IMG/VR virus record: IMGVR_UViG_3300048442_000857
Coordinates: 1 to 25,311 of that record
DNA length: 25,311 nucleotides
Direction: 5' to 3' (one strand)
DNA from: a virus
Position numbers and translations under genes: made by a program. Positions within the stretch are counted from its first letter, which is position 1. Each line of letters opens with the position of its first letter. A model generated the notes under the pieces. That model saw nothing but the letters and a program-made list of their open reading frames with translations, was not told the origin of the DNA and ran no database searches. Shown here piece by piece: positions 14,014 through 22,619 of the stretch.

Positions 14014-14846
14014 GAATAGGAATAATTGGTCAAGGTTTTGTTGGTAATGCTATTTATCAAAAATTTAGTAAATATTATGATGTTTTAACTTATGATTTAG
14101 ATGAGTCAAAAAGTAATTCAACTAAAGATAAAGTATTAAACCAAGAAATTGTATTCATGTGTTTACCTACACCTATGAATAAAGATGGTAGTTGTAATGT
14201 GGATATTATAGAAAGAGAATTAGAAAATATAGATTTGATTGCAGATAATCAAGAAATTTTAAAAACGGTAGTAGTTAAATCAACAATCCCTCCGGGTACA
14301 ACTGATAAATGGAATAAAAAATATGAATCACTAGATATAGTTTTTAATCCTGAATTTTTAACAGAAGCGAATGCAGTAGATGATTTTGAAAACCAATCCA
14401 GAATTATACTAGGTGGAAGTAAAGAATCAACTACTAAGTTAAAGCAATTATATTCTTCTATATTTAGAAAAACTTCTAAAATAATTAAAACAGATTCTAA
14501 AACTGCTGAATTAGTAAAATATGTTACTAATGCTTTTTTATCTACTAAAGTATCATTTGCTAATGAAATATATGATTTATGTAATGGTATAGGCTTAGAT
14601 TATGATAAAGTAATAGAATATGCTACTTATGATGAACGTCTAGGGCTATCACATTGGGGTGTACCCGGACCTGATGGTGATAGGGGATTTGGTGGTCATT
14701 GTTTTCCTAAAGACCTATCAGCATTAATTAAAATTACTGAAAACTTAAATATAAAAAATAATGTATTAGTTGCTACTCAAAAAACTAATAATGAAGTTAG
14801 AAGTAATAGAGATTGGGAAAAAATGAAAGGGAGAGCTGTGGTTTAG
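14010..14846 (+). CDS. UDP-glucose/GDP-mannose dehydrogenase-like, short form
   Basis: Family members oxidise a nucleotide hexose to its uronic acid with NAD. RIGIIGQGFVGNA at 2-14 is the NAD site. FMCLPTP near 49-55, KSTIPPGTT near 90-98 and FNPEFLTEANAVDDF near 112-126 are conserved, and GGHCFPKD at 228-235 contains the catalytic Cys231. AELVKYVTNAFLSTKVSFANEI at about 166-187 is the central dimerisation helix. At 278 residues, about 150 fewer than usual, the protein stops shortly after the catalytic Cys and lacks the C-terminal UDP-binding domain. The stop is clean. ATG 14010 is chosen for its ATGA junction; TTG 14001 is upstream in frame. It closes the glycan operon. Confidence 0.85.
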   Translation: MRIGIIGQGFVGNAIYQKFSKYYDVLTYDLDESKSNSTKDKVLNQEIVFMCLPTPMNKDGSCNVDIIERELENIDLIADNQEILKTVVVKSTIPPGTTDKWNKKYESLDIVFNPEFLTEANAVDDFENQSRIILGGSKESTTKLKQLYSSIFRKTSKIIKTDSKTAELVKYVTNAFLSTKVSFANEIYDLCNGIGLDYDKVIEYATYDERLGLSHWGVPGPDGDRGFGGHCFPKDLSALIKITENLNIKNNVLVATQKTNNEVRSNRDWEKMKGRAVV

Positions 14847-14868
14847 CCAAAAAGTTTTCGTATATTTA
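14837..14868 (+). promoter_or_regulatory. Phage promoter copy 1 (TGTGGTT / TTCGTATATTTA)
   Basis: TGTG at 14837 and TATATTTA at 14861-14868 are separated by exactly 20 nt. The core TTTTCGTATATTTAC and the upstream GGTT agree with the other four copies. The arrangement matches Bacteroidota housekeeping promoters (TTTG, 19-21 nt, TAnnTTTG). It overlaps the end of the dehydrogenase gene and drives the gene at 14896. The leader contains AAAAGG about 10 nt before that ATG. Confidence 0.75.
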
Positions 14869-14895: not shown

Positions 14896-15243
14896 ATGTA
14901 TTCGACAATTCAAATTACAACGCCCGTGAAAATGATTCCTTGCTCTAGATGTAAAGGTGATATGCCTGAACTTAGATATACCCAATATGGGTATGATTTC
15001 TGTGTAAAATGTTCTACTGTAGGTGCTAAAAGAGGATTACCTGTAACAATGGGTACTGGTGATCACACTTGGACTGAAACTATAGTAATGGAAGAAGATG
15101 ATTATATCCAGTATACAGAAATGGAAGAAATGCATTATGGAAAATCAAAAAAGAATAAAGCTGAACGATTAAATTTGGAAGAAGATGACCGAAATCTTCA
15201 AGGTCCTTTCCAAATTATTAATGGAAAATCAAAAGAAGATTAA
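14896..15243 (+). CDS. Hypothetical protein with zinc-finger cysteines, 115 aa
   Basis: First gene after promoter copy 1, starting at ATG 14896. Cys16-x2-Cys19 (IPCSRCKGDMPE) and, after a Tyr-rich stretch, Cys36-x2-Cys39 (DFCVKCS) form a classical four-cysteine zinc-ribbon or treble-clef-like unit. The rest is acidic and hydrophilic (METIVMEEDDY..., MEEMHYGKSKKNKAERLN). The four-Cys arrangement recalls DksA/TraR-type fingers, but the flanking helices are missing, so I do not assign that family. It may be a transcription- or nucleic-acid-associated factor. Followed five nt later by the HNH-like gene. Confidence 0.7.
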   Translation: MYSTIQITTPVKMIPCSRCKGDMPELRYTQYGYDFCVKCSTVGAKRGLPVTMGTGDHTWTETIVMEEDDYIQYTEMEEMHYGKSKKNKAERLNLEEDDRNLQGPFQIINGKSKED

Positions 15244-15248
15244 AAGTT

Positions 15249-15863
15249 TTGCCTAAACCTAAACCGCTTTCTAAACAACAAATAGAAGCAGCTCAATCCC
15301 AAACGAGATCTAATATGGCTGCTGCAAGGTATTTACATGTTTCATATCAACACTACAAACGATATGCAAAGATGTATGGTATTTTTGACCAACATACAAA
15401 TCAAAGTGGAAAAGGTATACCTAAATTCCTCAAAGGACACGGTAAAAAACCGGCTTTGATGGATATAATTGAGGGCAAAGTATCAGCGGCACATTTCCAA
15501 CCTGCAAAAATAAAGTATCGTTTAATAGAAGAGGGATATTTATCAGAGCAATGTTCAGTGTGCGGTTTCAAAGAACGTAGGGTTTTAGATTACAAAATGC
15601 CCCTACTGTTGCATTTCAAGGATGGTAACAAATCAAACTACCTACTTGAAAATATAGAGTTACTGTGTTACAATCATTATTTCCTCACCGTGGGTGATAT
15701 CTTTAATGATAAAGATGTTAAACAAATAGAGTCTACAAGAGAACATTTTGGGACTAGTGAGAAAATAGATTGGGAGGTTGATGAATATCATCTACAACGT
15801 CTTAAAGAATTAGGATTAGAAGATGATGAAGACAACCCTAACCAGTATATCTCTAGAATCTAA
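15249..15863 (+). CDS. HNH endonuclease-like protein with N-terminal helix-turn-helix
   Basis: A 204-residue protein starting at TTG 15249. The N-terminus (LSKQQIEAAQSQTRSNMAAARYLHVSYQHYKRYAKMYG) looks like a homeodomain-type helix-turn-helix. The middle contains CSVCGF near residue 100, then LLLHFKDGNKSNYLLENIELLCYNHYF, which follows the HNH template of zinc cysteines, a catalytic His position with D.N, then N..LLC..H. One member of the usual leading His-His/Asp-His pair is not obvious, so catalytic competence is uncertain. Free-standing HNH enzymes in T4-like phages are often selfish homing nucleases; others process DNA. ATG 15315 is a later start that would remove the first helix. Confidence 0.68.
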   Translation: MPKPKPLSKQQIEAAQSQTRSNMAAARYLHVSYQHYKRYAKMYGIFDQHTNQSGKGIPKFLKGHGKKPALMDIIEGKVSAAHFQPAKIKYRLIEEGYLSEQCSVCGFKERRVLDYKMPLLLHFKDGNKSNYLLENIELLCYNHYFLTVGDIFNDKDVKQIESTREHFGTSEKIDWEVDEYHLQRLKELGLEDDEDNPNQYISRI

Positions 15864-16022
15864 ATGAAACGAAGTAAGAAACATACTAAAATCGTAACTG
15901 ATTATGATCGTATTAAATCTAAACATTTAGATCGTTTAGCATCTAAAACTTTAGATAAAGATGAAACATCACAACAGTTAAAAAAAAGACCTGTTAAAGG
16001 CAACTTCCTAAAAAATTTTTAA
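15864..16022 (+). CDS. Small basic protein, 52 aa
   Basis: A short gene directly after the HNH-like gene's stop, running from ATG 15864 to TAA 16020. The sequence is Lys/Arg-rich at both ends (MKRSKKHTKI..., KKRPVKGNFLKNF) with a more neutral helical middle (DRIKSKHLDRLASKTLDKD). No family is recognised. The tight packing with neighbours on both sides (0 and 2 nt) and coding-like composition support a real gene. The charge suggests nucleic-acid binding, but this is unsupported by any motif. Confidence 0.6.
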   Translation: MKRSKKHTKIVTDYDRIKSKHLDRLASKTLDKDETSQQLKKRPVKGNFLKNF

Positions 16023-16024
16023 TT

Positions 16025-16615
16025 ATGAAATCAAAATCAAGTGAATTGTTATTCCTGACCTTTTTTATCTCAGTTGTATCAGCATTTGCAGCAGTACCTA
16101 ATGTAATAAGATATAATGCTGGTACTGTTTCTAATTTAGAAGCCCAAAAGATAAAAATTGATATTGAAATACCTAAAGCTAAAGTAGAAATTATAGATCA
16201 AACTACATTATTTTTAACTTCAATAGGCCGCCGTGAATCCTCAAATCGATATAACGTAGTAAATAAATGGGGATATATGGGTAAATACCAGTTTGGACGC
16301 AAAACCCTAAATGCTTTAGGGTATGAAAATATTTCTAATAAGCAATTTCTTAATAATCCTAAACTGCAAGAAGAAGCTATGGTAAAGCTTCTTAAGCATA
16401 ATAAACATATTCTTAGAAGAGAAATTAGAAAATATTGTGGTACCCAAAAACATGGGGTGTATATTACAGAATCAGGATTATTAGCAGCAGCTCATTTAGC
16501 TGGTCCGGGTAATGTAAAAAAATGGTTAAGGCGAGGTAAACGTTTTAGGGATGGTTTGGGAACTGATTTAGTAGAATATTTAAAATTATTTGGTAATTAT
16601 AAAATTAATATTTAA
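16025..16615 (+). CDS. Secreted lysozyme/transglycosylase-like protein
   Basis: A 196-residue protein with an N-terminal signal or anchor sequence: positively charged MKSKSS, hydrophobic core ELLFLTFFISVVSAFAAVP to residue 25. The mature part has a lysozyme-superfamily signature, SIGRRESSNRYNVVNKWGYMGKYQFGRKTLNALGY at about 66-100, with the probable catalytic Glu71 and the Y.G.YQFG segment of SLT-like transglycosylases. LLAAAHLAGPGNVKKWL near 155-171 is the typical closing helix. It would cleave peptidoglycan glycan strands from the periplasmic side. A signal-anchored muralytic enzyme suggests lysis or local wall opening. Whether the signal is cleaved is unclear. Confidence 0.8.
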   Translation: MKSKSSELLFLTFFISVVSAFAAVPNVIRYNAGTVSNLEAQKIKIDIEIPKAKVEIIDQTTLFLTSIGRRESSNRYNVVNKWGYMGKYQFGRKTLNALGYENISNKQFLNNPKLQEEAMVKLLKHNKHILRREIRKYCGTQKHGVYITESGLLAAAHLAGPGNVKKWLRRGKRFRDGLGTDLVEYLKLFGNYKINI

Positions 16616-16637
16616 TATGTATAATAAAAAATAAATT

Positions 16638-16775
16638 ATGGCAAAAGGTATTAACCTAGGTTCTTATGTTGCACAACCTAAAAGAAAACGTCCTGGTGTA
16701 CATGCAAAAAGTAAAACATCAAAATTAAAAACAAGTAAAAATTATGCTAAACAATACAGAGGACAAGGTAAATAA
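16638..16775 (+). CDS. Small basic conserved-type phage protein, 45 aa
   Basis: The start is ATG 16638 and the stop TAA 16773. The sequence runs MAKGINLGSYVAQPKRKRPG, then VHAKSKTSKLKTSKNYAKQY and RGQGK: strongly basic and free of acidic residues. I recall very similar short KRPGVHAK.KTSK-type proteins in marine T4-like phages, but no function is known to me. Basic charge and length suggest a DNA- or RNA-binding or virion-packaged peptide. A TATAATAAA element lies 9 nt upstream. Confidence 0.7.
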   Translation: MAKGINLGSYVAQPKRKRPGVHAKSKTSKLKTSKNYAKQYRGQGK

Positions 16776-16776
16776 A

Positions 16777-16926
16777 ATGATAACTACTCCTGTAACTTTA
16801 TTTCATAATTTAACTAATAATGATTTGATTGCTATACATGAAGCTGGGGAGTTAGAAAATTTCTGTTATGCCCTAACTTTAGATTTAGCTACAAAATATG
16901 AAAAAGGTACAACTTACGAGGCATGA
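16777..16926 (+). CDS. Hypothetical protein, 49 aa
   Basis: ATG 16777 follows the previous stop by one nt. An in-frame ATG at 16744 lies inside the previous gene and is rejected. The protein reads MITTPVTLFHNLTNNDLIAI, then HEAGELENFCYALTLDLATK with a YEKGTTYEA end. It looks like a compact two-helix protein. No family is recognised. Start position and coding evidence rest on the operon-style spacing. Confidence 0.6.
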   Translation: MITTPVTLFHNLTNNDLIAIHEAGELENFCYALTLDLATKYEKGTTYEA

Positions 16927-16939
16927 ATGGCAGGAAGCG

Positions 16940-17047
16940 ATGAAGGTACCTTTACCACATCGTAATAAGAAACAATATTTTCGTAAAGAAAAGCATAAGA
17001 AAAACGGCAACCAATTAGGTTGCCTCAATTATTTTTCGTATATTTAG
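16940..17047 (+). CDS. Possible small basic ORF running through the terminator
   Basis: An ATG at 16940 opens a 35-residue frame, MKVPLPHRNKKQYFRKEKHK then KNGNQLGCLNYFSYI. The first 22 residues are basic and protein-like. The rest is the translation of the terminator hairpin and the TTCGTATATTTA promoter. Either the gene really ends inside the terminator, or the frame is accidental. Coding is therefore doubtful. Confidence 0.3.
   Translation: MKVPLPHRNKKQYFRKEKHKKNGNQLGCLNYFSYI
17006..17036 (+). terminator. Intrinsic terminator (GGCAACC-AATTA-GGTTGCC)
   Basis: A perfect 7-bp stem GGCAACC/GGTTGCC (17006-17012 and 17018-17024) with a 5-nt AATTA loop is followed within 6 nt by ATTTTT. An A-run precedes it. 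It ends the transcription unit from promoter copy 1. The 3' arm and loop (TTAGGTT) also supply the -33 region of promoter copy 2. Confidence 0.75.
17015..17046 (+). promoter_or_regulatory. Phage promoter copy 2, built into the terminator
   Basis: TTAG at 17015 and TATATTTA at 17039-17046 are 20 nt apart; TTAGGTT lies in the loop and 3' arm of the terminator hairpin. The core is TTTTTCGTATATTTAG. Transcription would restart here for the gene at 17064, whose leader reads AAATAAAAGGTTATG. Confidence 0.75.
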
Positions 17048-17063
17048 GTATAAATAAAAGGTT

Positions 17064-17279
17064 ATGAAACAATTAAGCAAAGAGTATGTAATTGATAGTA
17101 TTTCAGATACTATTAAATCAGAAGTAAAAATGGGAGTAACAATTCCAGAATTATCTGATAGTAGAATAAGTTATATTGCTGATTCTATTTTATTTGAATG
17201 GAATGAGCTAGGTGATCCTGATGCTAATTTTTCTGAATTAGTTAAATGGAATTTATTTGAAAACCTAACACACTCATAG
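17064..17279 (+). CDS. Hypothetical protein, 71 aa
   Basis: First gene after promoter copy 2, starting at ATG 17064 with AAAAGG two nt upstream. Amino-acid pattern: MKQLSKEYVIDSISDTIKSE, then VKMGVTIPELSDSRISYIAD and an acidic C-terminal half (LFEWNELGDPDANFSELVKW). It is probably helical and soluble, and no family is recognised. Its stop is immediately followed by the next start at 17280, indicating co-translation with the SWIM-type protein. Confidence 0.7.
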   Translation: MKQLSKEYVIDSISDTIKSEVKMGVTIPELSDSRISYIADSILFEWNELGDPDANFSELVKWNLFENLTHS

Positions 17280-17708
17280 ATGGGACTTTGGGAATTTTCA
17301 AATAAAAATAAACATGGTAATTGGCGAACTAGAATAGTCAATATAGATGGAGCATTAAGTCATCCCGGGGGTGCTTTTGGTAGTGCAACTTCCGCAAGAC
17401 GATTTAAATATGAGTATAAACATGAATTAATGCCTCCTACTATATTAAAATTAAATGGTAAAACTTATTTAATGCCCCTATGGAAAGAAGTAGTCAATGG
17501 TACTACTATAAATGATATAGAATGGATAAAACCAGTTAAGAAAAAAACAGTAGTAGAAGAATTTAAATTTGAATCTGCTAGTTCAGGTTCACTTTATACA
17601 ACTAAAAAATTTACTAAACCAAGTGGGGAAATAAAATATAGTTGTACTTGCCCCGGTGTATGGAGAGCCAAAGATAGGCGCTGTAAACATATTAAATCCC
17701 TTGAATAA
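17280..17708 (+). CDS. SWIM-type zinc-finger protein
   Basis: A 142-residue protein. The C-terminus ends CTCPGVWRAKDRRCKHI, a CxC...CxH pattern typical of SWIM zinc fingers, which bind DNA or proteins. The N-terminal part is a small domain of unknown type (MGLWEFSNKNKHGNWRTRIV, then HPGGAFGSATSARRFKYEY), with KLNGKTYLMPLWKEV further on. SWIM domains occur in transposases, SWI2/SNF2 enzymes and small phage proteins. Here the finger appears to stand alone with an unidentified partner domain. A DNA-associated role is inferred. Confidence 0.65.
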   Translation: MGLWEFSNKNKHGNWRTRIVNIDGALSHPGGAFGSATSARRFKYEYKHELMPPTILKLNGKTYLMPLWKEVVNGTTINDIEWIKPVKKKTVVEEFKFESASSGSLYTTKKFTKPSGEIKYSCTCPGVWRAKDRRCKHIKSLE

Positions 17709-17721
17709 GTATATTTTTTTA

Positions 17722-17736
17722 TATATTTATAATAAA
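17722..17736 (+). promoter_or_regulatory. Weak promoter-like element
   Basis: TATATTTA at 17722-17729 is followed by TATAATAAA (17728-17736) in a 48-nt gap before the gene at 17757. A similar TATAATAAA occurs at 16620-16628 before the gene at 16638. Neither has the GGTT -33 box or TTCG of the strong copies, so I treat both as candidates only. Confidence 0.3.
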
Positions 17737-17756
17737 TCAATTTAAATCAAAAGTAA

Positions 17757-18071
17757 ATGAAAATTTTAGGTATTATTTTATTAGTTATTATTATTGCAGG
17801 AGTTGTATATTACTTCACTCAATTAAAAGATCGTGATGGGGATGGAGATGTAGACTTTAAAGATGCTAAATTAACAGCTGAAGATATTAAAGAAGACTTA
17901 GATGCGGGTGTTAAAGATGTAAAGCATAGAGCTAAACGTGTTAAAGAAGAAATTAAAGATGTTGCGGCTGCAGTAAAAGAAGTAGGTAACCAAGTTGGTG
18001 ATGTAGCTAAAGCAGCTAAAGGTAAACCAAGAACTGGTCGTAAGCCAAGAGCTAAAAAAACAAAAAAATAA
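17757..18071 (+). CDS. Single-pass membrane protein with EF-hand-like loop and basic tail
   Basis: A 104-residue protein in three parts. Residues 3-22 are a hydrophobic transmembrane segment (ILGIILLVIIIAGVVYYF). Residues 25-36 read DRDGDGDVDFKD, matching the DxDxDG calcium-loop consensus, with Asp instead of Glu at the twelfth position. Residues 40-85 form an amphipathic, charged helix with heptad-like repeats (EDIKEDLDAGVKDVKHRAKR), and the tail ends in a basic, Lys/Arg-rich stretch. An envelope protein whose tail could bind nucleic acid or acidic lipid is suggested. The function is unknown. The stop abuts the next gene's start. Confidence 0.75.
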   Translation: MKILGIILLVIIIAGVVYYFTQLKDRDGDGDVDFKDAKLTAEDIKEDLDAGVKDVKHRAKRVKEEIKDVAAAVKEVGNQVGDVAKAAKGKPRTGRKPRAKKTKK

Positions 18072-18950
18072 ATGAGTAAATATAATCTAACTGACATCCA
18101 CGAAGGTATTATTAGAGAATCTATGGGCCGAGGTGGTACTGTAAATGATTCATTTTATAATATTGCTAATATAGCGGATGAATTAGAAGGCCAAAACCTA
18201 GGTAAAGATACTTACCCAATTGAAGTCAAACGTTTAGGTCCATCTGGAGATGATAAAGTAACTGAAGAAATAGTAATTCGTTATGGTGAAGGTCATAAAG
18301 ATTATTTTAGCATTTATGATTATAAGTTTGGAGAAGATCCTACTAGTGAGGAAAACTATCAAACTGAATATTCATTTAGTTTAGGCATTCCAACTGGAAA
18401 TACAGATGGAAAAGAATGGGCAACTAAATTAGGGTTTAAAATTGAAGATATGAACGAAATATCAAAAGAGAATATTAAGGAAGAAGAAGGATTTACTGAA
18501 GTAAGTACTAAAGAAATTCGCTTCCACTTAGATGCTTATAAAGCAGGAAACATTAATGGTGATGATTTAGCCCAAGCAATTGAAGAAATTGTATTTGGAG
18601 AAACTAGAGCACCAGGTACAATGGAAGAAGCAGCTATTAAAGAACCTATAGAACTTCAAGATGCCTTAGAAAGATATTCATTTGGAGAAATATTAGATAC
18701 TGCTGCTGAGTTCTATACTGAAAATGGAGAAAAAGAAGTTGCTGTATTAGCACAACAAGCTTCTAGCAAATTCAGAAAAATGTTAGATGATTTAGACGGA
18801 TTAGAAGAAGAAACAGATAGACCTGGATATCATAAAGATGGTACTCCAAAATCAAATGATGAAATGTCAGACGATGAACGTGAAGAGTTCTATTTGAATT
18901 TAGATTCAGTTGATGAAGATCTAAAAGCACATTTTGCTCGCTTTAAATAA
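18072..18950 (+). CDS. Hypothetical acidic protein, 292 aa
   Basis: A long, strongly acidic protein starting directly after the previous stop. The N-terminus MSKYNLTDIHEGIIRESMGR is distinctive. A moderately ordered middle (EIVIRYGEGHKDYFSIYDYKFG, EYSFSLGIPTGNTDGKEWAT) precedes a helical C-terminal half rich in Asp/Glu (MEEAAIKEPIELQDALERYS, DDLDGLEEETDRPGY). No known domain is recognised. The acidity and length might suit a scaffold-type, DNA-mimic or structural phage protein; none is supported by a motif. The gene is closed by the terminator at 18970. Confidence 0.7.
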   Translation: MSKYNLTDIHEGIIRESMGRGGTVNDSFYNIANIADELEGQNLGKDTYPIEVKRLGPSGDDKVTEEIVIRYGEGHKDYFSIYDYKFGEDPTSEENYQTEYSFSLGIPTGNTDGKEWATKLGFKIEDMNEISKENIKEEEGFTEVSTKEIRFHLDAYKAGNINGDDLAQAIEEIVFGETRAPGTMEEAAIKEPIELQDALERYSFGEILDTAAEFYTENGEKEVAVLAQQASSKFRKMLDDLDGLEEETDRPGYHKDGTPKSNDEMSDDEREEFYLNLDSVDEDLKAHFARFK

Positions 18951-18969
18951 AGTAAAAATATATTAAAGA

Positions 18970-19005
18970 AAACGGCGTATCCATTAGGTTACGCCGTTTT
19001 TTTTT
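18970..19005 (+). terminator. Strong intrinsic terminator
   Basis: AAACGGCGTATCC pairs with GGTTACGCCGTTT (one mismatch, ATTA loop; stem 18970-18999), and nine consecutive T residues follow at 18997-19005. It ends the transcript of the genes from 17064 to 18950. Its loop and 3' arm (TTAGGTT, 18984-18990) are the -33 box of the next promoter. Confidence 0.85.
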
Positions 19006-19015
19006 CGTATATTTA
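18984..19015 (+). promoter_or_regulatory. Phage promoter copy 3, built into the terminator
   Basis: TTAG at 18984, 20 nt, then TATATTTA at 19008-19015. The terminator T-run passes directly into TTCGTATATTTA, so the hairpin and the promoter share about 20 nt. The downstream leader has AAATAAAGGTTATATG before the small gene at 19041. Confidence 0.75.
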
Positions 19016-19040
19016 TGGCATAAATAAAAATAAAGGTTAT

Positions 19041-19124
19041 ATGAGTAAATTAGACAAAATTCAATTCGCAATAATAGGAGTTATTGCTGCTTATTTTATT
19101 ATTAGAACAATTCAAACAATATAA
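19041..19124 (+). CDS. 27-aa membrane microprotein
   Basis: A tiny gene at the start of a promoter-led unit: ATG 19041 to TAA 19122. The peptide opens MSKLDKIQFAIIGVIAAYFI and ends IRTIQTI. It is a single transmembrane segment (residues about 9-22) with charged ends. The good leader (AAAGG five nt upstream), a TM-type composition and one-nt spacing to the next gene support translation. Such phage microproteins often modulate membrane or lysis functions, but no specific role can be given. Confidence 0.65.
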   Translation: MSKLDKIQFAIIGVIAAYFIIRTIQTI

Positions 19125-19125
19125 T

Positions 19126-19584
19126 ATGACAGCAACTAGAGATTTATTAAGAGAACATGTTGATCTATTTTTAAAGAAAGCAGATAAAAATGAGGTAGCA
19201 AGTGCAGTTGGTGCTGTATGCGAATCACTTGTGTGTGATTATTTTGGATGGACAAATATTGATGCTGATGGTTATGATGCAGTAGATAACTACGGAAACA
19301 CATATGAAATTAAATCTATGTCCTATGAAACAAATAATTTATATGTGGCTTATAATCATTCAAAGAAACAAGGTCATTATGATTATTTAGTTATATGCCA
19401 CTTTGATGAAAAGAGAGTATCAATTATTCCAAATTTTGAAATAGATAATTTTATTGAAAATGAAAGTAAAGTATTAAGATTAGATTTTAATGATCCTTTA
19501 TTAACCAAATTAGGTAAACAAAGACAAAAATCTAGATTTCAATCTTTATTTCTTAAATATGAAGTAAACCATTTTAAATTTTAA
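19126..19584 (+). CDS. Small PD-(D/E)XK nuclease-like protein
   Basis: A 152-residue protein from ATG 19126; a TTG-initiated extension to 19084 would overlap the membrane microprotein and is rejected. The active-site pattern of PD-(D/E)XK nucleases is visible: E33 in AVGAVCESLVCDYFG, the acidic DGYDAV at 48-53, and ExK at 61-63 (YEIKSMS). This is the order found in compact restriction-type and phage endonucleases. A domain boundary near residue 100 precedes a charged tail. The target is unknown. It could degrade host DNA, cut competing phage DNA, or act in recombination. Confidence 0.65.
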   Translation: MTATRDLLREHVDLFLKKADKNEVASAVGAVCESLVCDYFGWTNIDADGYDAVDNYGNTYEIKSMSYETNNLYVAYNHSKKQGHYDYLVICHFDEKRVSIIPNFEIDNFIENESKVLRLDFNDPLLTKLGKQRQKSRFQSLFLKYEVNHFKF

Positions 19585-19587
19585 ACT

Positions 19588-19728
19588 ATGATTAAACAAG
19601 GTGATTGGGTATTAGTTGATGGTAATAAGAAAAAATGTTTTGGTATTCATATTAATGGTAATTATTTGATTAAAAATAAAGGCAATTTAGTTCAAGTATT
19701 TAAAGAAAGAGTAACATCTTATGTGTAA
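19588..19728 (+). CDS. Hypothetical protein, 46 aa
   Basis: Starts at ATG 19588, three nt after the nuclease-like gene. The sequence opens MIKQGDWVLVDGNKKKCFGI and continues HINGNYLIKNKGNLVQVFKE. Its alternating hydrophobic/charged residues and GDWVLVD opening suggest a small beta-barrel (SH3-like). No family is recognised. It is the last gene of the unit from promoter copy 3. Confidence 0.6.
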   Translation: MIKQGDWVLVDGNKKKCFGIHINGNYLIKNKGNLVQVFKERVTSYV

Positions 19729-19730
19729 AA

Positions 19731-19762
19731 TGTGGTTACCCAAGATAGGATTCGTATATTTA
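19731..19762 (+). promoter_or_regulatory. Phage promoter copy 4
   Basis: TGTG at 19731, 20 nt, then TATATTTA at 19755-19762; the core is GATTCGTATATTTAC. GGTTACCC follows the -33 box, and an inverted repeat TTACC / GGTAA straddles the -7 box. It would drive the block from 19793; the leader ends AAATAAAGGTTATG. Confidence 0.75.
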
Positions 19763-19770
19763 CAAGGTAA
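19736..19770 (+). repeat. TTACC-N25-GGTAA inverted repeat around promoter copy 4
   Basis: Arms at 19736-19740 and 19766-19770 flank the -7 region. The same arms with the same 25-nt spacer occur at 22593-22627. It could be an operator for a dimeric regulator or an accident of a shared promoter cassette. Confidence 0.4.
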
Positions 19771-19792
19771 ATAAGTTAATAAAATAAAGGTT

Positions 19793-20482
19793 ATGTCACA
19801 ATTAGAATTATTTAAAACAAAAGAGCAAGAAGAAAATTTACAATACGCTATTAATAGATTTAATAAGCGTCAAGTAAAAGCTGAAGAGTGTTATTTTAAT
19901 ATTCTTAATATCCTAAGTCAAAATGGTTTTATAAAAAACAAACATTATGTACTTGAAGGTGAAGGAGAATATGTTACTAGTTATAAAGAATTTGATTTTG
20001 GGAGTTGGAGAGAAAATTTAACTGAAGAAGTATTAGTTAAATCCTGGAATGGTTCAATTAGGTTTTTATATTCATCTTATAATGAATATGATAATAAATT
20101 AGAAAACCGTGATGCAATGGTTGATATAAAAGATGGAAAATTCAATTTAGTTCAATTGCAAGGTAATTATCGTTATATTAAACCATCTACTTTATTGAGT
20201 AAATTAGATGAATCACATATTATTGCTAAAAACCGTTTTGATAAAGCTAATAAGTACAATAATACTGTTATTAAAGCATTAGAAGATTTACAAACTAAAT
20301 TTCCAGATGCTAAAATTACTCGTTCATCTTATGATGATAATATTACTATTGAATTTAAAAATGGTAATTCAGTTACATATAAGGTATGGAGTGATGGTTC
20401 ATTAAGTGAAAAAAGATGTTATATTAAAACTATCCAATCACTTAATCAGGATGATAAATTAAAAATGTTACAAAATCTATAA
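19793..20482 (+). CDS. Hypothetical protein, 229 aa
   Basis: First gene of the unit led by promoter copy 4. The protein opens MSQLELFKTKEQEENLQYAI and is dominated by mixed alpha/beta segments (FDFGSWRENLTEEVLVKSWN, IRFLYSSYNEYDNKLENRDA). The N- and C-terminal thirds are helical and rich in Lys/Glu, and the C-terminal part contains ITIEFKNGNSVTYKVWSDGS, which looks like a short beta-sandwich. No known domain is recognised. Its length and leading position suggest it is a main product of this unit. Confidence 0.7.
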   Translation: MSQLELFKTKEQEENLQYAINRFNKRQVKAEECYFNILNILSQNGFIKNKHYVLEGEGEYVTSYKEFDFGSWRENLTEEVLVKSWNGSIRFLYSSYNEYDNKLENRDAMVDIKDGKFNLVQLQGNYRYIKPSTLLSKLDESHIIAKNRFDKANKYNNTVIKALEDLQTKFPDAKITRSSYDDNITIEFKNGNSVTYKVWSDGSLSEKRCYIKTIQSLNQDDKLKMLQNL

Positions 20483-20484
20483 TT

Positions 20485-20769
20485 ATGACTTTTAAAGATT
20501 TAAAATTCAAAAAACATAAGGTAGTAGAAGGTATTCAAGCTACACTTGAGATTAAAACGAATATTTTCATATCAGTAGTAGCTGGTGATGGAATGTACTC
20601 AAATGGTAAAACAGGAAATAGAGCAGCTGTCTCTAAAGTTAAAGATGTTTCTTCATTTGAAGTAGGAATTATAAATGAGAATTTACCAAAAGAAGACCAA
20701 CAATGGGAAGTTATGGGTTGGCAATCAAGAGAGGATATTAATAGAATAATTCAAGAATATGCAAATTAA
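20485..20769 (+). CDS. Hypothetical protein, 94 aa
   Basis: Starts two nt after the previous stop. It reads MTFKDLKFKKHKVVEGIQAT, then LEIKTNIFISVVAGDGMYSN and a helical end (QSREDINRIIQEYAN). The first half is strand-rich, and AGDGMYSNGKTGN forms a polar loop. No family is recognised. The last codons overlap the next gene's start at 20759 by 11 nt, so they are translationally coupled. Confidence 0.65.
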   Translation: MTFKDLKFKKHKVVEGIQATLEIKTNIFISVVAGDGMYSNGKTGNRAAVSKVKDVSSFEVGIINENLPKEDQQWEVMGWQSREDINRIIQEYAN

Positions 20770-20986
20770 AAGACAAGTTTTACATCATTGTTTAGACCAA
20801 GCAAAGGAAATGTTTAAATTAGGTGAACAAGATAAAGCAAGAGATTATTGTGATATGGGAATTGCTTATGTTAGAGAAAAACGTATTGAAGGATACGATG
20901 CTAAAGATTTAATTGAAGATGTTAGAGTAGAGTTATGGTTAGAACGTTTTTGGATGTTCTTAGAAAATAAAAATTTATTACTATGA
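20759..20986 (+). CDS. Hypothetical helical protein, 75 aa
   Basis: Two amphipathic helices, QVLHHCLDQAKEMFKLGEQD then KARDYCDMGIAYVREKRIEG, give a TPR-like helix-turn-helix impression; the YCDMGIAY pattern is the kind seen in such repeats. A third helix (DLIEDVRVELWLERFWMFLE) ends in aromatic residues. A small protein-protein interaction module is possible but unproven. It overlaps both neighbours slightly. Confidence 0.6.
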   Translation: MQIKRQVLHHCLDQAKEMFKLGEQDKARDYCDMGIAYVREKRIEGYDAKDLIEDVRVELWLERFWMFLENKNLLL

Positions 20987-21183
20987 GTTTAAACTTTAAC
21001 AGTGGGAAATGGTGGGAATTATCGCTTACATTTGCTTGGCCCCACCAATGGTTTCAAATCGGGTGGTCAATAGAAGAACCAGATGAAAAAGATAGAAGTT
21101 TCTTAGTAAGAATATTTTTAGGTGTTATGTCCATTAATATAGAATGGGGAAACGAAGATTGGAAATTTAAAGACGATGTGTAG
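20983..21183 (+). CDS. Hypothetical aromatic-rich protein, 66 aa
   Basis: Tryptophan-rich and compact: MSLNFNSGKWWELSLTFAWP, HQWFQIGWSIEE, VRIFLGVMSINIEWGNEDWK. The alternating aromatic residues suggest a small beta-sheet protein or a membrane-associated one. Nothing recognisable by family. It overlaps the preceding gene by 4 nt and the following by 8 nt. Confidence 0.6.
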   Translation: MSLNFNSGKWWELSLTFAWPHQWFQIGWSIEEPDEKDRSFLVRIFLGVMSINIEWGNEDWKFKDDV

Positions 21184-22587: not shown

Positions 22588-22619
22588 TTTGGTTACCCTA
22601 AATATTGTTCGTATATTTA
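22588..22619 (+). promoter_or_regulatory. Phage promoter copy 5
   Basis: TTTG at 22588, 20 nt, then TATATTTA at 22612-22619: the best match of the five to the Bacteroidota consensus, with a perfect TTTG. TTGGTTACCC follows the -33 box. It drives the metalloprotease lipoprotein gene at 22655, and the leader ends AAATAAAGGTTATG. Confidence 0.8.

Follow-up and report, generated by a model that had tools for sequence, protein, structure and literature searches.

We analysed the IMG/VR virus record IMGVR_UViG_3300048442_000857 over its whole length of 25,311 bases (hereafter the window), with emphasis on two sites, 17006-17046 (site 1) and 18970-19015 (site 2), where a hairpin and a promoter motif occupy the same DNA. 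At both of them an intrinsic-terminator-like hairpin probably lies superimposed on a Bacteroidetes-type promoter, and at site 1 this hairpin probably also forms the nonstop end of a small basic gene. That hairpin and promoter share bases at both sites is confirmed, and the sequence anatomy of these composites, their recurrence, the covariation of their stems, the coding constraint on the small gene and the absence of its stop codon are established by the comparisons presented here.

Anatomy of two hairpin-promoter composites

A Rho-independent-like hairpin overlapping a promoter had been proposed for both sites in an earlier, sequence-only reading, and both structures are indeed present there. 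The features concerned, together with three further promoter motifs of the window, are as follows.

17006..17024, + strand: terminator-like hairpin of site 1 (5' arm 17006-17012, loop 17013-17017, 3' arm 17018-17024), from fold and covariation
17015..17021, + strand: putative -33 element TTAGGTT of site 1, built from the hairpin loop and 3' arm, its GGTT 17 nucleotides (nt) before TTCG
17035..17046, + strand: TTCGTATATTTA, predicted -7 region of the site-1 promoter, a motif also found in at least 120 IMG/VR stretches
18970..18999, + strand: terminator-like hairpin of site 2 (core arms 18970-18982 and 18987-18999), from fold and compensatory stems in relatives
18984..18990, + strand: putative -33 element TTAGGTT of site 2, within the hairpin
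19004..19015, + strand: TTCGTATATTTA, predicted -7 region of the site-2 promoter, from sequence and register
14840..14868, + strand: third putative promoter of the same type, without hairpin, GGTT 17 nt before TTCG
19734..19762, + strand: fourth putative promoter of the same type, without hairpin, GGTT 17 nt before TTCG
22591..22619, + strand: fifth putative promoter of the same type, without hairpin, GGTT 17 nt before TTCG

The site-1 hairpin consists of the stem GGCAACC, the loop AATTA and the stem GGTTGCC (RNA fold -12.4 kcal/mol, z -4.2), and that of site 2 of the arms AAACGGCGTATCC and GGTTACGCCGTTT around the loop ATTA, with a single T-T mismatch and A/T pairs that could extend the stem (-22.0 kcal/mol, z -6.5). 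Both thus possess the stable, G+C-rich stem and short loop of an intrinsic terminator. The T-run that was expected to lead from the stem into the -7 region is clear at site 2, where nine T's (18997-19005) directly follow the stem and continue into TTCGTATATTTA; at site 1 it is weak and interrupted (TCAATTATTTTTCG).

The stems covary. Relatives of site 1, found through the gene located 3' of it, have the same composite, and among nine distinct sequences six of the nine stem pairs changed on both sides, with 96.3% of the cells paired versus 31-47% in slid controls. GG(T/C)T is retained in every one of these relatives except L448, which keeps a stem (CGATC/GATCG) and has lost the -33 and -7 motifs. 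The relatives of site 2 likewise differ in their stems and preserve the pairing through compensatory changes, so that the anticipated covariation of the stem around a conserved -33 box is borne out.

Five copies of TTCGTATATTTA are found in the window (14857, 17035, 19004, 19751 and 22608), all on the + strand, versus a Markov expectation of 0.003-0.01 per strand, and each copy has GGTT at exactly 17 nt 5' of its TTCG, which upholds the exact -33 register assigned to the TTAGGTT of the loop and 3' arm. As a word by itself TTAGGTT is not enriched in the window (7 seen, 7.9 expected) and was dropped as such; it is therefore the register that is informative. The promoter motif can be written TTWGGYT-N13-TTCGTATATTTA, which is equivalent to TTTG-N20-TATATTTA. 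The primary sigma factor of Bacteroidetes, sigma-ABfr, uses promoters with TTTG at -33 and TAnnTTTG at -7 (PMC7366714), and the putative window promoters resemble these in motifs and spacing (TTTG-N20-TATATTT), the -33 TTTG being represented by TTWGG in a fixed register. They differ in a -7 box that ends in A, in the TTCG preceding this box, in GG(T/C)T at -33 and in their strong enrichment in viral contigs. The base directly 5' of GG is T in 86% and A in 13% of 236 promoters sampled from the family (see below), and both composites of the window represent the A variant, TTAG.

When IMG/VR was scanned with no requirement for a hairpin, the exact promoter pattern was detected in at least 120 contig stretches and its GGCT variant in at least 120. 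From 85,000 bacterial and archaeal genomes 109 stretches were recovered; these are mainly scattered singletons that look like chance, together with a small number of contigs resembling phage and an element present in multiple copies in Flavobacterium and Chryseobacterium. The promoter is thus a phage-enriched element. Bacteroidetes are the presumed host group, an assignment made from the promoter type and from the phage-like matches in Flavobacteriales contigs rather than from a host link.

A small coding region with a hairpin in place of its stop codon

The sequence-only reading overlooked that a conserved coding sequence contains the site-1 hairpin, which stands in for its stop codon.

16898..17047, + strand: 49-amino-acid open reading frame (ORF) MKKVQLTRHEWQEAMKVPLPHRNKKQYFRKEKHKKNGNQLGCLNYFSYI, a candidate ArfA/BrfA-like gene, from the ratio of nonsynonymous to synonymous polymorphism (pN/pS), a match to DUF7230 and no stop before the hairpin

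The sole in-frame stop of this ORF is the TAG at 17045-17047, which lies beyond the hairpin and overlaps the -7 box. Across 64 homologous segments the frame of the ORF gives a pN/pS of 0.22, and the two alternative frames give 1.03 and 1.89; the ORF is real, with purifying selection acting in its frame only. A search of IMG/VR returned 80 relatives, of which 63 were counted for stop and hairpin. The 37 that lack a hairpin all have a stop 9-24 nt past the KHK codons, and in all 26 with one the first stop occurs 30-90 nt past these codons, beyond the hairpin (in L458 directly 3' of the stem). Stop and hairpin are therefore mutually exclusive in 63 of 63 relatives, and about six distinct hairpin types replace the stop, including both registers relative to the promoter described below and one without a promoter. 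A 27th listed hairpin, that of L509, was left out of the count; it sits well past an ordinary stop. The nonstop arrangement, with a hairpin inside the ORF ahead of the stop, thus characterises part of the family: 26 loci have it, and the 37 others have a stop and no hairpin. Where a composite adjoins another gene, the upstream ORF nearly always terminates ahead of the hairpin; four such ORFs end within a hairpin that is weak and A/T-rich.

Six relatives without hairpin (L462, L464, L468, L479, L481 and L515) have a stop, TAG or TAA, that directly abuts the -7 region, either TTCGTATATTTA or a one-base variant. No homologue of the small ORF was found by tblastn among 50,697 records of cultured phages. 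Among 149 genomes of the family of Flavobacterium a single one contained a homologue at E 0.001, and that one has an internal stop. A locus considered as a Flavobacterium host version of the nonstop gene (L522) was discarded, since it resembles a tRNA gene end with a terminator behind it and is absent from the family sample.

The small protein is basic and has a tail of the form K-Y-x-R-K-x-K-H-K, in which K30, K32 and H33 are invariant among 22 diverse members and R29 and K34 are at least 90% conserved; it thus shares the Lys-His of the basic C-terminal tails of ArfA and BrfA. Pfam DUF7230 is matched at E 0.1 or better by 16 of the 22 members. E. coli ArfA (query sequence verified as ArfA against PDB entries) matches DUF7230 weakly, at E 0.11, over the same positions as the phage tail, and in hhalign the tails of ArfA and of the phage profile align in register (36% identity over 25 residues, P 0.007). 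The arfA mRNA of E. coli is nonstop by virtue of a stem-loop in the ORF (PMC3989581); in brfA an intrinsic terminator lies within the ORF, and BrfA and ArfA have in common a Lys-His motif that contacts 16S rRNA in the mRNA channel (PMC6881298). By tail chemistry and by architecture the phage gene therefore looks like an arfA or brfA gene, with no claim to membership of the ArfA family, which suggests that the site-1 gene may encode a phage ribosome-rescue-like factor produced, like these two, from nonstop mRNA.

With BrfA (Bacillus subtilis YqkK, PMC6881298) it has in common a small basic product, a terminator-like hairpin before the stop and Lys-His in a basic tail, a likeness taken from the published description of BrfA; in contrast to BrfA, the bases of the phage terminator double as the -33 box of the next gene. 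With ArfA (E. coli YhdL, PF03889) it shares the basic tail RKxKH in register, the nonstop architecture and a hairpin over the 3' end of the ORF, whereas no counterpart of its N-terminal part, LTxHEWxxALKxPxPHRNKK, was found in ArfA and PF03889 is unmatched. Genes named ArfA by their authors are on record for phages, namely gp30 of pelagiphage HTVC027P (PMC12753301, by PF03889) and g10 of Citromicrobium phage RXM (PMC8953757). To go by the passages concerned with them, these are likewise putative ribosome rescue factors carried by a phage; unlike the present gene, they come from phages whose hosts are not Bacteroidetes, and the same passages make no mention of a nonstop architecture.

The nonstop arrangement might nevertheless be accidental, the ORF encoding an unrelated basic peptide whose stop drifted past the terminator-promoter with no regulatory meaning. 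The homology to ArfA is weak and confined to the basic tail, and many homologues have a plain stop codon, as this would lead one to expect. We regard it as unlikely all the same, since it does not account for the mutual exclusion of stop and hairpin in 63 of 63 relatives with some six hairpin types, nor for the fact that other genes at the same type of composite keep their stop.

Hairpins across the promoter family

The expectation that the same composite would be found elsewhere proved correct: it recurs in many related contigs. Its frequency was assessed in 236 non-redundant promoters, fetched regardless of hairpins, with a hairpin score of 20 or more and with shuffles that hold the promoter fixed. 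The GG of the -33 box lies in the 3' arm of a hairpin in 9 of the 236 promoters (0.3 in shuffles) and in the 5' arm in 16 (1.4 in shuffles), and a further arrangement, with the hairpin just 5' of the -33 box, occurs in 10 (0.5 in shuffles). Both overlapping registers are tightly fixed. Most promoters of the sample have no overlapping hairpin, and the same is true of three of the five in the window (14857, 19751 and 22608). No direct match to terminator-promoter base sharing in phages was found in the literature, of which our coverage was partial.

Hairpins of the 5'-arm register (L119, L094, L315, L301, L303, L374 and others) carry the -33 TTTGG in the 5' arm and have a 3' arm that ends exactly at TTCG, with no T-run; their stems are variable with pairing retained, and, mostly devoid of a U-tract, they may have a different role. 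At L011 (G002 159795, 166061), L120 and L035, perfect hairpins lie wholly in the promoter spacer, for example GGCTCCC-ATA-GGGAGCC between -33 and TTCG. A separate family (L413, L416, L417, L422, L423, L431 and L432) shows the same composite in the form GTGGCGCATCC-TTTTT-GGATAGCGCCAC with a long T-run and TTCGTATATTTA; its -33 is GGAT, matched by the 5' arm.

It had been suggested that the sharing of bases may couple hairpin formation to promoter recognition. This part of the earlier reading is not supported, as separated forms occur in both directions among the relatives of site 1: six carry the promoter, in two cases as a one-base variant, and no hairpin (L462, L464, L468, L479, L481 and L515), and in L448 the hairpin is present and the -33/-7 pair missing. 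The composite is consequently not an obligatory unit, and obligatory coupling is rejected; to judge from these sequences, hairpin and promoter are separable modules that have been superimposed repeatedly. In a looser form of coupling, polymerase released at the T-run would stay on the DNA and be captured by the promoter, upstream transcription thereby feeding downstream initiation. In E. coli, RNA polymerase that has ended a transcript at an intrinsic terminator can stay bound to the DNA and start again from a promoter close by (PMC6978380, PMC6978322), and by the geometry of the composites the point of release would be only a few bases from the promoter; a released polymerase could thus meet a nearby promoter in both systems. 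Unlike in E. coli, terminator and promoter share bases here in a fixed register, and any role for recycling is putative. Recycling has no need of shared bases, as a terminator placed some tens of bases off would also serve, and given also that most promoters of the family lack an overlapping hairpin and that the two modules separate among the site-1 relatives, we consider such coupling improbable.

Equally, the palindromes might act at the promoter as protein operators or DNA cruciforms and not as RNA terminators. This would suit the three spacer-only hairpins as well as the 5'-arm register, which ends at TTCG without a T-run (none of 17 has five or more T's in the next eight bases). It fits poorly with stem sequences that vary widely while pairing is retained, unlike a sequence-specific operator, and with the T-rich tail at both window sites. 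The 5' arms are purine-rich and the 3' arms C/T-rich, and with the promoter core excluded G-T pairs outnumber A-C pairs by 18 to 7 (P 0.02-0.06), which is suggestive only and favours RNA weakly. A count of 53 to 8 that initially seemed a decisive strand test was withdrawn in favour of 18 to 7, because the fixed T and G of the -33 box allow only G-T wobbles. On balance, operators or cruciforms would be a rather improbable explanation of the window sites. Least probable is that the small gene's hairpin serves as an RNase III site, or another 3'-end processing or stabilising structure, which would leave the mRNA nonstop all the same: the weak U-tract at site 1 and the precedent of E. coli arfA, whose mRNA is nonstop mainly through RNase III cleavage of a stem-loop (PMC3989581), speak for it, but the stems are short (7-10 base pairs) and mostly have a T-rich stretch behind them, and hairpins of this class are also found at the ends of genes with ordinary stop codons.

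A putative stop-and-restart element and its surroundings

We infer termination, promoter activity, a ribosome-rescue function and control by transfer-messenger RNA (tmRNA) from the sequence comparisons, and the superimposed terminator and promoter would then operate as follows. Polymerase arriving from upstream would transcribe the hairpin and be released in the T-rich stretch leading to TTCG. A fresh polymerase would bind the same DNA as a promoter, with the -33 TTWGGYT within the hairpin and the -7 TATATTTA after it, and the next transcript would begin about 7 nt past the -7 box. The outcome would be a compact stop-and-restart insulator that separates co-directional genes, or transcription units, within very little sequence; the compactness of the genome is the best explanation for the sharing of bases, and coupling is not needed. 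At site 1 the coding region of the small basic protein would in addition have the hairpin as its 3' end, with no stop ahead of it, so that terminated transcripts would be nonstop. Their product would be tagged by the host tmRNA as long as trans-translation works and would accumulate once this is saturated, as for arfA and brfA.

Several observations weigh against this reading. The interrupted U-tract of site 1 may allow only partial termination. Compared with TAnnTTTG, TATATTTA has a sole mismatch, A for G at the last base, a base that was fixed in the search pattern. The DUF7230 matches (E 4e-4 to 6e-4 for the window ORF, up to 0.02 among the members listed) fall short of the curated cut-off, the PF03889 (ArfA) profile gave no match to the small protein at E 1 or 0.1, and no sequence match to it was found in PDB. 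Stops are also rare in the two other frames across the hairpin interval (3 and 2 of 27 loci), which is short; the case is therefore built on the replacement of stop by hairpin, not on an open frame. Lastly, the relatives counted are phylogenetically non-independent.

So far, a hairpin in place of a stop codon has been described in bacterial genes, arfA and brfA among them. If the interpretation is correct, the site-1 gene would be a further rescue-factor-like gene, after those two, in which a transcription stop replaces the stop codon, and a phage case, in a host group where the gene has a homologue in one of 149 genomes, with an internal stop. Phages would then compress coding, termination and initiation onto the same bases, and a basic RKxKHK ORF with a hairpin and no stop would serve as a search rule for more cases. 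As natural variants separate these functions, the design is testable. More tentatively, Bacteroidetes phages may possess a nonstop rescue-factor family in which some 40 base pairs are at once the last codons, the stop-replacing terminator and the next -33/-7 promoter, with the factor switched on by infection-saturated tmRNA and termination feeding the next promoter; we offer this full scheme as a speculation that could well be wrong.

The remaining features around the two sites are listed below.

17064..17279, + strand: 71-amino-acid ORF, candidate gene of the site-1 promoter, start context AAGGTTATG
18072..18950, + strand: 292-amino-acid ORF 5' of site 2, with an ordinary stop codon ahead of the hairpin
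19041..19124, + strand: 27-amino-acid ORF 3' of the site-2 promoter, read from the sequence

The gene upstream of site 2 ends alike in the window (LKAHFARFK) and in the relatives (SLQEHFGRF or SLKEHFNRF). No DNA relative of positions 15000-21000 was found in the phage collection searched, and the clamp loader of the window has its nearest matches in T4-like phage clamp loaders, at about 38% identity or less. The 104-amino-acid protein encoded at 17757-18071 has a membrane segment at its N terminus and, after it, the EF-hand-like calcium-binding motif DRDGDGDVDFKD. The multi-copy bacterial element (L164, L174, L175, L177, L206, L210, L162 and L181; Flavobacterium, Chryseobacterium and Epilithonimonas) is often located at contig ends and carries a GTCTCA-n-TGAGAC terminator-like hairpin directly 5' of the same promoter motif; it is possibly an insertion sequence.

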